Assembly: GCF_000430585.1 (NCBI RefSeq)
Contig: NZ_AUMH01000001.1
Coordinates: forward strand, 186,001 to 250,000
Direction of reading: 5' to 3'
Length of the DNA: 64,000 bases
DNA from: Alicyclobacillus herbarius DSM 13609
GTDB lineage: Bacteria > Bacillota > Bacilli > Alicyclobacillales > Alicyclobacillaceae
A program made the translations under genes and the position numbers. The notes under the pieces are model-generated. The model was not told where the DNA came from, ran no database searches, and was given only the letters and a program-made list of their open reading frames with translations. Shown here one piece after another: positions 29,375 through 58,856 of this stretch. Position 1 is the stretch's first letter. Each line of letters opens with the position of its first letter.

Positions 29375-29415
29375 CATGAGGTTGTCCGAAAGGCGTCCCC
29401 CTTCCGGACACGCAC
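29375..29415 (+). repeat. Copy of the TCCGGAAAGGGG palindrome family (reverse orientation)
   Basis: GAGGTTGTCCGAAAGG, then CCCCCTTCCGGACACGC, with a shortened centre. It spans the in-frame ATG at 29376, which argues that this ATG is not the true start of the next gene. Confidence 0.6.
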
Positions 29416-37550: not shown

Positions 37551-37883
37551 TAATTCTTTCTGGCAAAGTCAAACCATACGGATTTGATGACGAGGATGAG
37601 TACCGCTCTGGATGCACACAGAGAGACCTGCCTTGGCTGGAAGCAGGTTTGCAGATCGGACGGGAACGACACCTCTGAGAACCTTCTTCAACGACCTGTT
37701 AGTCAAGAGACTTCAAAGTCCGACGCACAGGTCCCAAGGGAAGGCGGCGGCGCCCGTTACGCGTACGAAAGAGGAGATATCGGGCTGATAAGCCTGGGAT
37801 GTCTCAAACAGGGTGGCACCGCGGAAGGCAGCGCCTTTCGTCCCTGTCGGTTTCCGGCAGATGGACGGAGGGCGCTTTTCGTT
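37551..37883 (+). ncRNA. T-box leader (histidine) of hisS-aspS
   Basis: The universal T-box AGGGTGGCACCGCG is at 37810-37823. Upstream, AGAGAGACC and GCTGGAAGC (37622-37645) are the distal Stem I motifs. CAC (37670-37672, histidine), followed by CTCTGAGA, is the likely specifier. A terminator competes with the antiterminator: GCGCC (37831-37835) through GGCGC with inner CTGTCGG/CCGGCAG and a TTTT tail near 37876-37883. Uncharged tRNA-His would allow read-through. Confidence 0.93.
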
Positions 37884-41117: not shown

Positions 41118-41310
41118 ACAACCGATGACGCCCTGCGCTGTTGGTGTAAGCCTCCTCGTTTTGAGCCAACACCCATTTGAAAGGGAGTTCGGAGTCTCTT
41201 TCGTGAACACCTGCCTCGTCACAAGAGGACTTGTCTCACGTCAGAGCAGGACACCCACCTGCGAGAGCAGGTTCAAAACTACAGGTTTCACGGCAGGGGC
41301 GGGGCGCATC
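41118..41310 (+). ncRNA. ssrS: 6S RNA
   Basis: The sequence GTGTAAGCCTCCTCG, TGAGCCAACACCC, GGGAGTTCGGAGTC and GAACACCTGCCT is the pattern I recall for Bacillota 6S RNA. The ends pair (CGCCCTGC at 41129-41136 with GCAGGGGCG at 41293-41301), giving about 190 nt, the usual length. Location between aspS and rarA is also usual. 6S RNA mimics an open promoter and sequesters sigma-A RNA polymerase. The exact ends are approximate. Confidence 0.88.
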
Positions 41311-43313: not shown

Positions 43314-43360
43314 GCGCGTGTCCAGAAAGAGGAGTTCTGACCCTTTCTGGACAGCCTCTT
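43314..43360 (+). repeat. Copy of the palindrome family before the cysteine desulfurase
   Basis: GCGCGTGTCCAGAAAGAGG, AGTTCTGA, CCCTTTCTGGACAGCCTCTT: a hairpin with arms TCCAGAAAG/CTTTCTGGA. It lies directly after the cymR stop and immediately before the AAAGGAG ribosome site of the next gene. Confidence 0.8.
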
Positions 43361-49141: not shown

Positions 49142-49427
49142 AACTTTGCGTCAAGGCGAGACAGAAATAGGTAGTCTGAAAGGCCTTATATGCGAAAACG
49201 ATGAAGGACCCAAGTACGTCAGGGACACACGGGTGGTTCAGAGAGGGCGTCCCAGGCTGCGAGACGCTCCCCCCGGCTGACGGAAGCCAGTCTGGAGTGA
49301 CCTTTTTTACCGGGATCCGCCCGTTATTGCGGACACGAGTGACGTACAGCCATATCCGGGTTGTACGTAATCAGGGTGGTACCGCGAGTAGACTCCTCTC
49401 GTCCCTGTTGGGATGTGGGGAGTTTTT
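49142..49427 (+). ncRNA. T-box leader (alanine) of alaS
   Basis: AGGGTGGTACCGCG at 49373-49386 is the T-box. AGAGAGGGCGTC and GCTGCGAGACGC (49238-49268) form the distal Stem I part, and GCC (49286-49288, alanine) followed by AGTCTGGAG is the likely specifier. The terminator ACTCC...TCCC/GGGA...GGGAGT with TTTTT (49392-49427) competes with the antiterminator. Confidence 0.93.
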
Positions 49428-52171: not shown

Positions 52172-52221
52172 GTGTGTGTGTCCGGAAAGGGGAGTTCTGA
52201 CGCCGTTCCGGACAACCCCTT
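52172..52221 (+). repeat. Copy of the palindrome family before ireB
   Basis: GTGTGTGTCCGGAAAGGGG, AGTTCTGA, CGCCGTTCCGGACAACCCCTTA. The right arm has two changes. It lies in the gap between alaS and ireB, 35 bp before the start codon. Confidence 0.82.
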
Positions 52222-54212: not shown

Positions 54213-55721
54213 ATGAGTCGCAGGCGGTGGTTATGGATAACGTCTCTGTGCTTTGTTGGGTTAGCCGCCCTGTTGGGGCGGCTGTTTGTCGTCTCCGTAT
54301 GGCCTGCCGGCGGTCATCACCTAACCTTCGTACGTCCGGCTATCGCACTGGACGCGGAGCACTTTCACGTAATTCAGACGGATGACGGTCGGGGACGGAT
54401 TTTGTTCCGAAATGGCCAGCCGTGGTCGGGTACCACGCGCAGGTCCCACCTTGAGGCTCCAGACGGATTGGGCATCGACTGGCCGATTCATCAAGAGCGG
54501 GCCGCAGAGCGTCCGGATGCGGTCGTTGGCCTTGTCGGTCTTCCCGACCGTTGGCCCGATGTGCAACGGTCGGTACCCGTGCAAGGTCGATCCGGTCTCG
54601 AGTATCGGTTTGACCGCTTTTTATCCACCGGCAAGCCTGGCTTTCTCGCCTGGCTCGTGGATGCTCGAGGGAGAGCCCAAAGGGGGTGGTATAAACGCCC
54701 CGGAAACAGTGGATTGAACCTGCGCACGACGGTCGATGCGGCCTGGCAGACGACCGCAGACGCGATTCTCGACCAAATGGGCAGCCCGCGCGCGGCCCTG
54801 GTTGTGGTTGATGTGCAAACCCGCGACATTTTGGCCATGGCGAGTCGAGACGTGCATCATCCGTGGTTGAACCACGCTGTACGACCGGAAACGCCCGGGT
54901 CGATCTTTAAACTCATCACCGCGGCGGCCGCTCTCGAATCGTTTCGGTTTCAAGCCAATTCACGCTTCTTCTGTGCGGGGGTGGTGCCGTTGGCGGGGGT
55001 GAAGATGCACTGCTGGCGCCGACACGGACCGGAAACCTTCACCGAAGCCCTGGCGGAATCATGCGACGTAGCGTTTGCGCTCATCGGGGCGGCCGTTGGG
55101 CGAACCGGGGTTCAACGGATGGCTGAACAGCTCGGCATCCGGCAGACTGGCCTGCAGACGTTTCGCGGTAGGCCGGTCCTCCCTGAGGCCATACGTGGCC
55201 AGGTGTTCGTCCGCTCCGGTGACGACGCGGGGCTTTTGGCCAACACGGCCATTGGCCAAGAGGACGTACGCATGTCGCCACTCCAGGCGGCCAATCTGGC
55301 GGCTACCATCGGAGCAGGCGGGGTATACCGCGACGCGCGCTTGGCGACAGATCTGGAAACCCCTGACGGGGTCCGCACCGAGTTTTCCATGCACCCGGCG
55401 GTGCGTTCGATGTCGCCGGGGACGGCGTATATCTTACGGCAGGCGATGCGACAAGCTGTGGAAAATCCAGCAGGAACGGCCCACGTGCTCCACGACGCGG
55501 AAGAGCCATTGGCGGTTAAGACCGGTACGGCCGAGTTGCCGCATGCTGGGCGTGTTAATGCGTGGGTGGTCGGGCTCTTGCCTGCCGACCGGCCGCGTGT
55601 CGCGTTTGCTGTGGCCGTGCTGAACGCACCGGAGACTGCCGCGCACCGGCAGGTGTTCACAGCGGTCAGGAAGCTGGCGCACTGGTACAGGCAGTTTCAC
55701 GGGGTCTGCGGCATACGTTAG
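54213..55721 (+). CDS. Class B penicillin-binding protein (PbpI-like)
   Basis: 502 residues. A membrane anchor (WLWITSLCFVGLAALLGRLF) is followed by a short N-terminal domain and the transpeptidase domain. The latter has the catalytic serine in PGSIFK (SxxK), SxN replaced by SCD (AESCDVAFA) as also in some PBP2 proteins, and VKTGTAE as KTG. The spacing from GGAGGT to ATG 54213 is long (16 bp), so a nearer weak site may act. It lies between mltG and sigK; a sporulation role like PBP4b/PbpI is plausible. Confidence 0.88.
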   Translation: MSRRRWLWITSLCFVGLAALLGRLFVVSVWPAGGHHLTFVRPAIALDAEHFHVIQTDDGRGRILFRNGQPWSGTTRRSHLEAPDGLGIDWPIHQERAAERPDAVVGLVGLPDRWPDVQRSVPVQGRSGLEYRFDRFLSTGKPGFLAWLVDARGRAQRGWYKRPGNSGLNLRTTVDAAWQTTADAILDQMGSPRAALVVVDVQTRDILAMASRDVHHPWLNHAVRPETPGSIFKLITAAAALESFRFQANSRFFCAGVVPLAGVKMHCWRRHGPETFTEALAESCDVAFALIGAAVGRTGVQRMAEQLGIRQTGLQTFRGRPVLPEAIRGQVFVRSGDDAGLLANTAIGQEDVRMSPLQAANLAATIGAGGVYRDARLATDLETPDGVRTEFSMHPAVRSMSPGTAYILRQAMRQAVENPAGTAHVLHDAEEPLAVKTGTAELPHAGRVNAWVVGLLPADRPRVAFAVAVLNAPETAAHRQVFTAVRKLAHWYRQFHGVCGIR

Positions 55722-55751
55722 GAATAGTGCGCATCGTGCTTTTAGCGGTGA

Positions 55752-55936
55752 TCCGGAAAGGGGTCAGAACTCCCCTGCGCATTGCTTCGTCAGCGCCCAA
55801 AATGCTCCTTCACGTACCGAAAGACGTACGCACGGGCTGTCGCCGGCCTATACGGTCCCCACTGGGGACCAGGCCCAGATCGCATTTTGGGCTAGCTTCC
55901 TTGCACTGCTTGGGTCTTACCTAACCCCTTTCCGGA
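55752..55936 (+). repeat. Palindrome family copy split by a 149-bp structured insert
   Basis: TCCGGAAAGGGG (55752-55763), TCAGAACT, CCCC, then 149 bp (55776-55924), then CCCCTTTCCGGA (55925-55936). CCCC is present on both sides of the insert. Inside, GCATTGC (55779-55785) faces GCACTGC (55903-55909) with one mismatch. GCCCAAAATGC (55795-55805) pairs perfectly with GCATTTTGGGC (55882-55892). It encloses hairpins CGTAC/GTACG (55813-55830) and GGTCCCC-ACT-GGGGACC (55854-55870). No coding frame seen. Either an inserted small element or one large structured RNA. Confidence 0.7.
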
Positions 55937-55966
55937 CACGCGCTTTTACGAACGGGGGTGCGGACG

Positions 55967-56668
55967 ATGCCGGGATTGTTCACACTGCTGATGCTGGTGT
56001 TGAAGGATGTCTCCCTATTTGTCTCGTATGTCCGCAATAACACGTTTCCGCAGCCGCTGTCTGCCGAAGAAGAGCGAATGTACGCTGAGCGCATGCTCCG
56101 CGGAGACACTCACGCCCGAAACAAACTGATTGAGCACAACCTGCGCCTGGTCGCCCATCTGGTCAAGAAGTATGAAGGCACCGGAGAGGACCCGGAAGAC
56201 TTGATTTCCATCGGCACTATCGGCCTCATTAAAGCCGTGGAAAGCTATCACCCCAAGTACGGCACAAAACTGGCCACGTTTGCGGCGCGCTGTATCGACA
56301 ATGAGATCCTCATGTACCTTCGCAGTACGCGCAAGCACCGGCGGGACACGTCACTTGAGGAGCCGATTGGCCAGGATAAAGAAGGGAATGAGCTGACGCT
56401 GTCTGACCTCCTCGGCACACATCCAGACGAGGTGGTGCAGGCAGTCGACCTGTCGTGGGAGAAGCAAAAGATGTTCGAGCACCTACCCAATCTGCCAGAT
56501 CGGGAACGGGAGGTGTTGTGCAAGCGGTTCGGACTCCCGGACGGAGAAGAGAAGACGCAGCGCGAGATAGCCCAGGAACTGGGCATTTCGCGGTCCTATG
56601 TATCGCGGATTGAACGCAAGGCCTTAAATCGGCTGTATGAACAAATGCGGGCGGGTCGAGTTCATTGA
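55967..56668 (+). CDS. sigK: RNA polymerase sigma factor sigma-K, pro-form
   Basis: Late mother-cell sporulation sigma factor. The N-terminal pro-sequence ([25 protein letters not shown], hydrophobic, cut at about residue 20) is quoted in part: [19 protein letters not shown]. Then region 2 [28 protein letters not shown], and region 4 [20 protein letters not shown] (as [17 protein letters not shown]). 233 residues in one uninterrupted frame: no skin element. ATG 55967 has GGGGTG ahead. Confidence 0.96.
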
Positions 56669-58759: not shown

Positions 58760-58812
58760 TAGAGTAGGACACCGCGATGGCAGGCACGACCGGCCGCGCG
58801 AGTCGTGGAGCA

Positions 58813-58856
58813 TGTGTCCGGGAAGGGGAATTCTGACCCCTTTCCGGACTACCTCT
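58813..58856 (+). repeat. Copy of the palindrome family before aroE
   Basis: TGTGTCCGGGAAGGGG, AATTCTGA, CCCCTTTCCGGACTACCTCT. Arms pair with one G:T. It ends 25 bp before the aroE start. Confidence 0.85.

Follow-up and report, generated by a model that had tools for sequence, protein, structure and literature searches.

The short region between a penicillin-binding-protein (PBP) gene and sigK in Alicyclobacillus herbarius DSM 13609 holds an inverted repeat that is split by a strongly folded stretch. Such a structure may be a small mobile element, a structured non-coding RNA or a leader affecting sigK, and the initial annotation had left these readings side by side. The question of which one applies was addressed by comparison of sequences, starting from the 64,000 nucleotides of DNA analysed here as a whole (the window).

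Extent and Parts of the Element

The elements of the structure that had first been described are present. The palindrome has perfect 12-bp arms (55752–55763 and 55925–55936), and CCCC stands on both sides of a 149-bp stretch (55776–55924), which contains a perfect 11-bp stem. The folding energy is well beyond that of shuffled sequences on either strand, with −96.6 kcal/mol on the plus strand (z −6.8) and −111.1 kcal/mol on the minus strand (z −8.3), none of 200 shuffles being as good in each case. Two negative statements did not hold. The insert was said to have no terminal inverted repeats (TIR) of its own, whereas a larger unit, 55745–55943, flanked by TTTTA, has the outer palindrome as its TIR. 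It was also said to have no coding frame, while a mechanical ORF of 120 amino acids (55562–55924), starting within the upstream gene in a different frame, crosses the element. The parts of the unit are as follows (TSD, target-site duplication):

55740–55744, no strand: left copy of the TSD, TTTTA, of the TWWWA type of the family
55745–55943, minus: whole mobile element of 199 bp, read as an IS1182-type MITE from an exact match of model R2 and the TIR/TSD layout
55745–55763, plus: left TIR, GCGGTGATCCGGAAAGGGG, with near-identical ends on IS1182-like insertion sequences (IS)
55764–55924, minus: interior, a conserved structured core matched by model R3, split here by a nested hairpin
55795–55805, plus: 11-bp core stem, 5′ side, pairing with 55882–55892 and covarying in the family
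About 55811–55831, plus: conserved apical hairpin CACGTAC..GTACGC, which pairs and covaries
55834–55876, plus: nested hairpin repeat "D", GGGCTGTCGCCGGCC...GGTCCCCACTGGGGACCAGGCCC, seen alone elsewhere and, in other copies, at different points
55882–55892, plus: 11-bp core stem, 3′ side, pairing with 55795–55805
55925–55943, minus: right TIR, CCCCTTTCCGGACACGCGC on the plus strand, with near-identical ends on IS1182-like IS
55944–55948, no strand: right copy of the TSD, TTTTA, from the flanking sequence

The strand given for the whole element is the sense of the conserved core in copies among rRNA and tRNA genes. On this strand, 55943–55745 matches model R2 exactly with 70.3 bits and an E-value of 6.5e-18; the training set of the model did not contain the window copy but did contain a copy from the same genome (L134). 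Model R3, built from core copies with other closing stems, matches 55760–55927 on the same strand (31.9 bits, E 8.7e-6). The family consensus of the TIR is GAGGnTGTYCRRAAAG, from which the window copy deviates at a few bases, and the 11-bp stem occurs in the family as the covarying variants GCCCAAAATGC, GCCAAGAATGC and GCCCCAAATGC. As for the two hairpins that were thought to belong to the insert, the apical one is conserved in the family, while the other is a separate 43-bp repeat that is absent from many members.

A Dispersed Family

The covariance search that had been proposed for this region found homologues both in the same genome and in others. In the genome of the window (G000), a 211-bp query returned 80 matches at E ≤ 10, scattered along the genome; fragments and palindromes matched in both directions make up many of these. 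With covariance model R1, built from 22 copies, 30 matches were obtained at E ≤ 0.01, corresponding to 24 distinct places after removing 6 opposite-strand duplicates; short forms account for 8 of the 24. Within the order, 16 of 59 genomes had R1 matches at E ≤ 1e-6, with at least 51 in G018 and in G038, 38 in G046, and 35 in G003 and in G039, numbers that are rough, capped at the 51 candidates scored per genome, and in which a copy may count on both strands. The remaining 43 genomes, including the congeners G001 and G002, gave no R1 match at E ≤ 1e-6 with filters that lose weak matches; one weak match in G001 appeared in the class-wide search, and fragments are present in both congeners. In the class, a match at E ≤ 0.001 was found in 34 of 398 genomes, with 7 candidates scored in each.

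A search of named genomes with the inverted-repeat ends alone returned at least 118 stretches. The matches listed come from Terrilactibacillus, Lentibacillus, Oceanobacillus, Pseudalkalibacillus, Evansella, Paenibacillus, Lederbergia and Aquibacillus, as well as from a Desulfotomaculum MAG and Bacillota MAGs, several sources having many copies. From 80 listed loci of these stretches, 83 end-selected elements were obtained. The apical hairpin motif is present in 79 of them, in one orientation in 78, and the length is 153–157 bp in 79, in agreement with a family unit of about 155 bp. Both this unit and the 199-bp window copy are too short for a transposase gene. In a gene-context test of 133 elements, little orientation bias was seen (51:33 among co-directional neighbors); genes stand on both sides of 116 of them, and a crude rule places 3 within an ORF. 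Plasmid and phage collections gave no match except one of 27 bp in a single Paenibacillus record, in the plasmid search with three family members as queries.

Some unusual arrangements were also observed. In Evansella caseinilytica, the element forms a tandem array with left ends 160 bp apart (L231:417-1270), and left ends are spaced by 187–188 bp in G336:C7. Two related copies of about 280 bp have the same ends and a different interior (L212:1505-1787 and L221:4225-4504), possibly a second cargo. In G045, a different palindromic element of about 120 bp, GGGGAGCAGTGATAA...TTATCACTGCTCCCC, is nested in a family copy (L090:466-743).

Target Duplications and Empty Sites

Target duplications were evaluated on 147 elements (114 from named loci and 33 from G genomes, many of them from a few genera), selected for the apical-hairpin motif, for near-consensus sequence at both ends and for freedom from N; one has no flanks. 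A perfect 5-bp duplication is present in 116 of the remaining 146 distinct complete elements, and 19 more have one mismatch. The duplicated target is A/T-rich with the consensus TWWWA, and the window copy has TTTTA on both sides. With the comparison shifted by −3, −2, −1 and +1, only 0, 1, 0 and 4 of 146 showed a duplication.

Empty sites were found in the two same-genus genomes, where the junction between the PBP gene and sigK is uninterrupted, with 84 and 82 bp between anchors versus 284 bp here. Since the site is empty in both congeners, the window copy is inferred to have inserted between these two genes after the split from them.

A Probable IS1182-like Partner

Ends of the form GAGnnTGTYCRRAAAG are common to the MITE family and to IS in G063, G038, G147 and, in a broken copy, G003. 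G063 has 16 copies of a 1,636-bp IS whose ends are GAGCGTGTCCGAAAAG and GAGGTTGTCCGAAAAG. Of these, 14 are flanked by perfect 5-bp duplications, A/T-rich like those of the MITEs. The single MITE match of this genome (L137) has the end GAGGATGTCCGAAAAG, and TGTCCGAAAAG is common to L137 and the IS. In G147, such an end pair surrounds 1.6 kb with the transposase in two overlapping frames, a frameshifted copy, and the flanks TTTAA and TATAA differ by one base. In G038, the complete IS ends in TGTCCGGAAAG as compared with TGTTCAAAAAG in the MITEs of that genome, the difference being in variable bases, and a second IS has MITE-type sequence at one end only.

The transposases match Pfam DUF772 and DDE_Tnp_1 above the cut-off. 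For three proteins, the best NCBIfam model is IS1182, with E-values of 1.3e-28 to 6.6e-32; the scores of 100–111 bits are under the curated cut-off of 270, and the partner is therefore named "IS1182-like". Using one protein as the query (P0001) at E ≤ 1e-15, matches were found in 5 of 23 genomes (G003, G038, G039 as a fragment, G063 and G147), while none was found in the genome of the window or in the MITE-rich G018, G045 and G046. An autonomous partner in the same genome as the window element was thus not found; it is not a strict requirement, since partners can be lost. In G063, 16 IS copies stand against a single MITE match.

The interior of the MITE is not sequence of these IS. When 147 MITE interiors were compared with the three IS by blastn, no match was obtained at E ≤ 0.01; an internal-deletion derivative would resemble the IS sequence next to the ends, and no such similarity is seen. 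Because the ends are near-identical and the target duplications are the same, the IS would act on the MITE in trans, and an IS1182-type MITE mobilized in this way is the best reading of the element. The earlier suggestion of a new small mobile element is borne out by the dispersed family, the empty sites, the 5-bp target duplications and the IS with near-identical ends.

A Conserved Fold between the Ends

The core between the ends is about 120 nt long and folds into a single long hairpin whose internal loops are fixed, a fold conserved in lineages scattered across Bacillota. Representatives were chosen by a greedy 85% rule, and 2 of the 27 (L265 and L294, internal deletions) were excluded from the alignment. 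The consensus of the remaining 25 has 34 pairs. The compensatory changes that were expected of a maintained stem are present, 20 of the 34 pairs having changes on both sides. The covariation score was 0.431, compared with 0.136 for shuffled alignments (0 of 500 reach it) and at most 0.112 for slid controls, a score that is favored by deriving the tested structure from the same alignment. What supports the earlier proposal of a structured non-coding RNA is the conserved fold of the interior, rather than a demonstrated transcript. Promoter and terminator scans found nothing.

At the gathering score, Rfam gave no match at the window element or in the scanned loci of the family and the core; a permissive scan at the element gave one chance-level match only, to a CRISPR repeat (E 3.1). 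Elsewhere in the window, Rfam identifies T-box leaders at 37578–37848 and 49192–49409 and the 6S RNA at 41127–41309. This last RNA was considered for the element and rejected, there being no match to it.

The core also occurs outside the MITE. Matches of model R2 (25 MITEs) at E ≤ 1e-6, in 25 of 398 phylum genomes with 7 candidates scored per genome, include full elements and core copies with other closing stems. Among 36 other-stem copies examined at 33 loci, a TIR within 3 mismatches is present at neither end in 28, at one end in 7 and at both in 1. Since 8 of the 36 have one or two TIR-like ends, MITE copies and other-stem copies may form a continuum. The closing stem is common to five copies in G525, while within G774 and within G645 it differs with the pairing kept. 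Model R3, with the 36 other-stem copies as rows, finds all 25 MITE representatives between their ends (E 1.4e-21 to 1.3e-4), a test that is reciprocal and not independent, since R2 served to find and align the rows of R3.

Several of these copies are neighbors of stable-RNA genes. The core lies between 16S and 23S in L141, after 5S in two copies in L192, and between tRNA genes in L190 (two copies), L193 and L370, while in L373 it precedes 16S by about 100 nt; L190 and L193 are probably orthologous, both from one genus. Among the remaining loci, the core follows a cobalamin riboswitch in L375 and is near the tmRNA gene in L389.

These copies bear on whether the core is maintained as RNA or as DNA. 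It may be selected at the DNA level only, as a hairpin or cruciform in transposition or host-protein binding, the copies among rRNA and tRNA genes then marking permissive insertion sites. Stem covariation is satisfied by either strand, and the little orientation bias among MITE copies agrees with such a role. In addition, counts of G-U versus A-C on the pairs common to both strands are equivocal, with 19:11 in the set of 25 and 13:13 in the first set, so the strand is undecided by them. An rRNA or tRNA gene is present within the fetched stretch at only 6 of the 33 other-stem loci, 20 of which are covered by stretches of about 620 bases. Against a purely DNA-level role, the copies at these 6 loci keep the core despite their other stems and have it in the transcript sense in 8 of 8 cases, and in 23 of the 25 representatives the better fold is that of the strand matching those transcripts, minus in the window. 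We regard selection on DNA alone as rather unlikely, while still deserving serious consideration; the core would rather act at the RNA level.

Short Palindromes and Nested Hairpins

A total of 21 short palindromes of 36–75 bp have the same or similar ends, some with perfect duplications. The window holds four short palindromes:

29378–29415, minus: short palindrome, a hit of the family model (E 1.2e-8)
43314–43356, minus: short palindrome of the same family from the family search, no core, with a 5-bp duplication on both sides (ttaaa, L096)
52174–52219, plus: short palindrome of the same family from the family search, no core
58810–58853, minus: short palindrome of the same family from the family search, no core

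Many of the 21 keep core remnants, and a few have no recognizable remnant. L314 keeps AAAACTCCAC, to which CTTAACCAC is added in L326 and further GGATTGC in L318, and L041 of G000 keeps core parts from both sides. Since the parts differ from one short form to another, many of these palindromes look like internal deletions of the full element. The deletion joint is at CCAC in L314, to be compared with CCCC in G000, and the presence of short palindromes in the genome accounts for the earlier impression of a palindrome interrupted at CCCC with a 4-bp target duplication.

Taken literally, that impression means two steps, a short palindrome first and the structured 149-bp element later into its CCCC, with 4 bp duplicated. 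Core-less short palindromes with the same ends do exist in G000 and G147, several with perfect 5-bp duplications, and no core remnant is recognizable in L226:5245, L231:4052 and L231:7391; the closing stems of the core also differ strongly between lineages, as if it fitted different palindromes. But the two congeners have no palindrome at this locus either, the differing core parts of several short forms point to deletion, and the length of the core and its placement between the TIRs are near constant, as seen in the 153–157 bp of 79 of the 83 end-selected elements. Nesting in two steps is improbable on this evidence, and the CCCC on both sides is probably a coincidence.

Nesting is seen with the smaller repeat D. 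In the window, a 43-bp variant adjoins the apical hairpin. Three other G000 copies (L039, L043 and L047) have an insertion of 46 bp, which appears to consist of 44 bp and a CC duplication and is located after CT in a C run, at two different points, one in L039 and L043 and the other in L047. Module D is also found alone and within copies of itself. Another genus (g10) has it too, and a variant is present in g2. More generally, double-hairpin repeats of 43–46 bp were observed as clean inserts in C runs, inside other repeats and inside themselves, in more than one genus (window 55834–55876; L039, L043, L047, L053, L055–L057 and L081–L084). In L046, L048, L049 and L051, a further hairpin, GGGACAACAGTCC..GGACTGTTGTCC, is within this repeat or replaces part of it. 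Known examples of small nested hairpin repeats are the small dispersed repeats of Nostoc and the double-hairpin elements of Allomyces mtDNA. Likened to them by description only, module D also inserts cleanly inside other repeats, in a different lineage.

Position Relative to sigK

The likely start of sigK is the ATG at 55967, with GGGGGTG ahead of it. At the end of the upstream gene (55712–55720) and upstream of the element lies CATACGTTA, which we take to resemble a SigE/SigK −10 element. A CATAC-like string was observed at the corresponding place in the two congeners and in L102.

That the element is a conserved regulatory leader of sigK is very improbable: it is strongly folded, ends 23 bp upstream of the likely start and lies downstream of CATACGTTA, so it may be within the transcript, but a sigK-specific leader is unsupported because both same-genus relatives lack the element here, copies occur at many unrelated sites and the strand of the core runs antisense to sigK. 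The element may affect sigK, but nothing indicates that it serves this gene; any such effect would be incidental to its insertion into the short region ahead of sigK.

Comparison with Known Systems

REP/REPIN and BIME elements are short dispersed palindromes moved in trans by RAYT transposases. The family described here is likewise made of short dispersed palindromes that would be moved in trans, with 5-bp duplications of the DDE type.

In Methanosarcina acetivorans, MITEs of 160 and 169 bp are paired with ISMac2 of the IS1182 family (PMC3852290). The excerpted table of that source has one row with 14 copies and the values 26 and 4, and another with 7 copies and the values 25 and 0, these being repeat and duplication sizes in uncertain order (PMC3852290). 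As far as that excerpt goes, the ISMac2 MITEs are like the present family in their similar size, in inverted repeats common with an IS1182-family IS and in having no transposase of their own. The present family differs from them in the 5-bp duplication and in an interior that is a conserved covarying fold common to other-stem copies, structure being a point on which the excerpt is silent for the ISMac2 MITEs.

In the Bacillus cereus group, excerpts of three sources describe bcr1 as a MITE-like repeat of 147 or 167 bp with an average of 39 copies per strain, a TTTAT site motif and a conserved structure, restricted to this group; bcr repeats of all 18 families are within transcripts in 84 of 165 and 62 of 155 cases in two strains (PMC6542083, PMC3446304, PMC2267715). 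Compared by these partial descriptions only, bcr1 and the present family are alike in size, in MITE-like nature and in having a conserved structure.

A Probable Mobile Element with a Structured Cargo

At the level of sequence, a dispersed family, IS-like ends, 5-bp duplications, an empty site and a conserved fold are established. We consider it very likely that the element is a non-autonomous MITE which uses an IS1182-like transposase in trans and a 5-bp TWWWA target and carries a captured conserved fold as cargo. The ends of 55745–55943 would be recognized by an IS1182-like DDE transposase and insertion would occur at the A/T-rich target, which becomes duplicated, as the flanks show. Between the ends, the domain of about 120 nt is not IS sequence; its long hairpin, also found with other closing stems, would be a functional RNA fold that was taken up as cargo between IS1182-like ends and dispersed along with them. 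The window copy, holding in addition a 43-bp nested hairpin, would have landed in front of sigK as one such event.

A broader proposal is more tentative, and we give it a somewhat less than even chance. The core would be a structured Bacillota RNA of about 120 nt with the apical motif GGAGCGUAC-nnn-GUACGUGAG, working in rRNA and tRNA transcripts and elsewhere, which was also captured between IS1182-like ends as a "functional-RNA MITE" scattered by tens. If this is true, the core is either a host RNA element riding a transposon or a transposon part domesticated in stable-RNA operons. No earlier description of such elements was found among the open-license papers listed by the literature searches or in Rfam 15.

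The usual view of a MITE is that of an insertion sequence emptied of its interior. The present family is unusual in that its cargo is a conserved structured domain and not IS sequence, kept by compensatory change across distant lineages. Its core also occurs in elements with other ends, some of them among rRNA and tRNA genes, and this makes the family a case in which an exchange of parts between a structured RNA and a transposon can be tested. Many of the unannotated hairpins in Bacillota genomes may have the same explanation, among them insertions immediately ahead of genes such as sigK.
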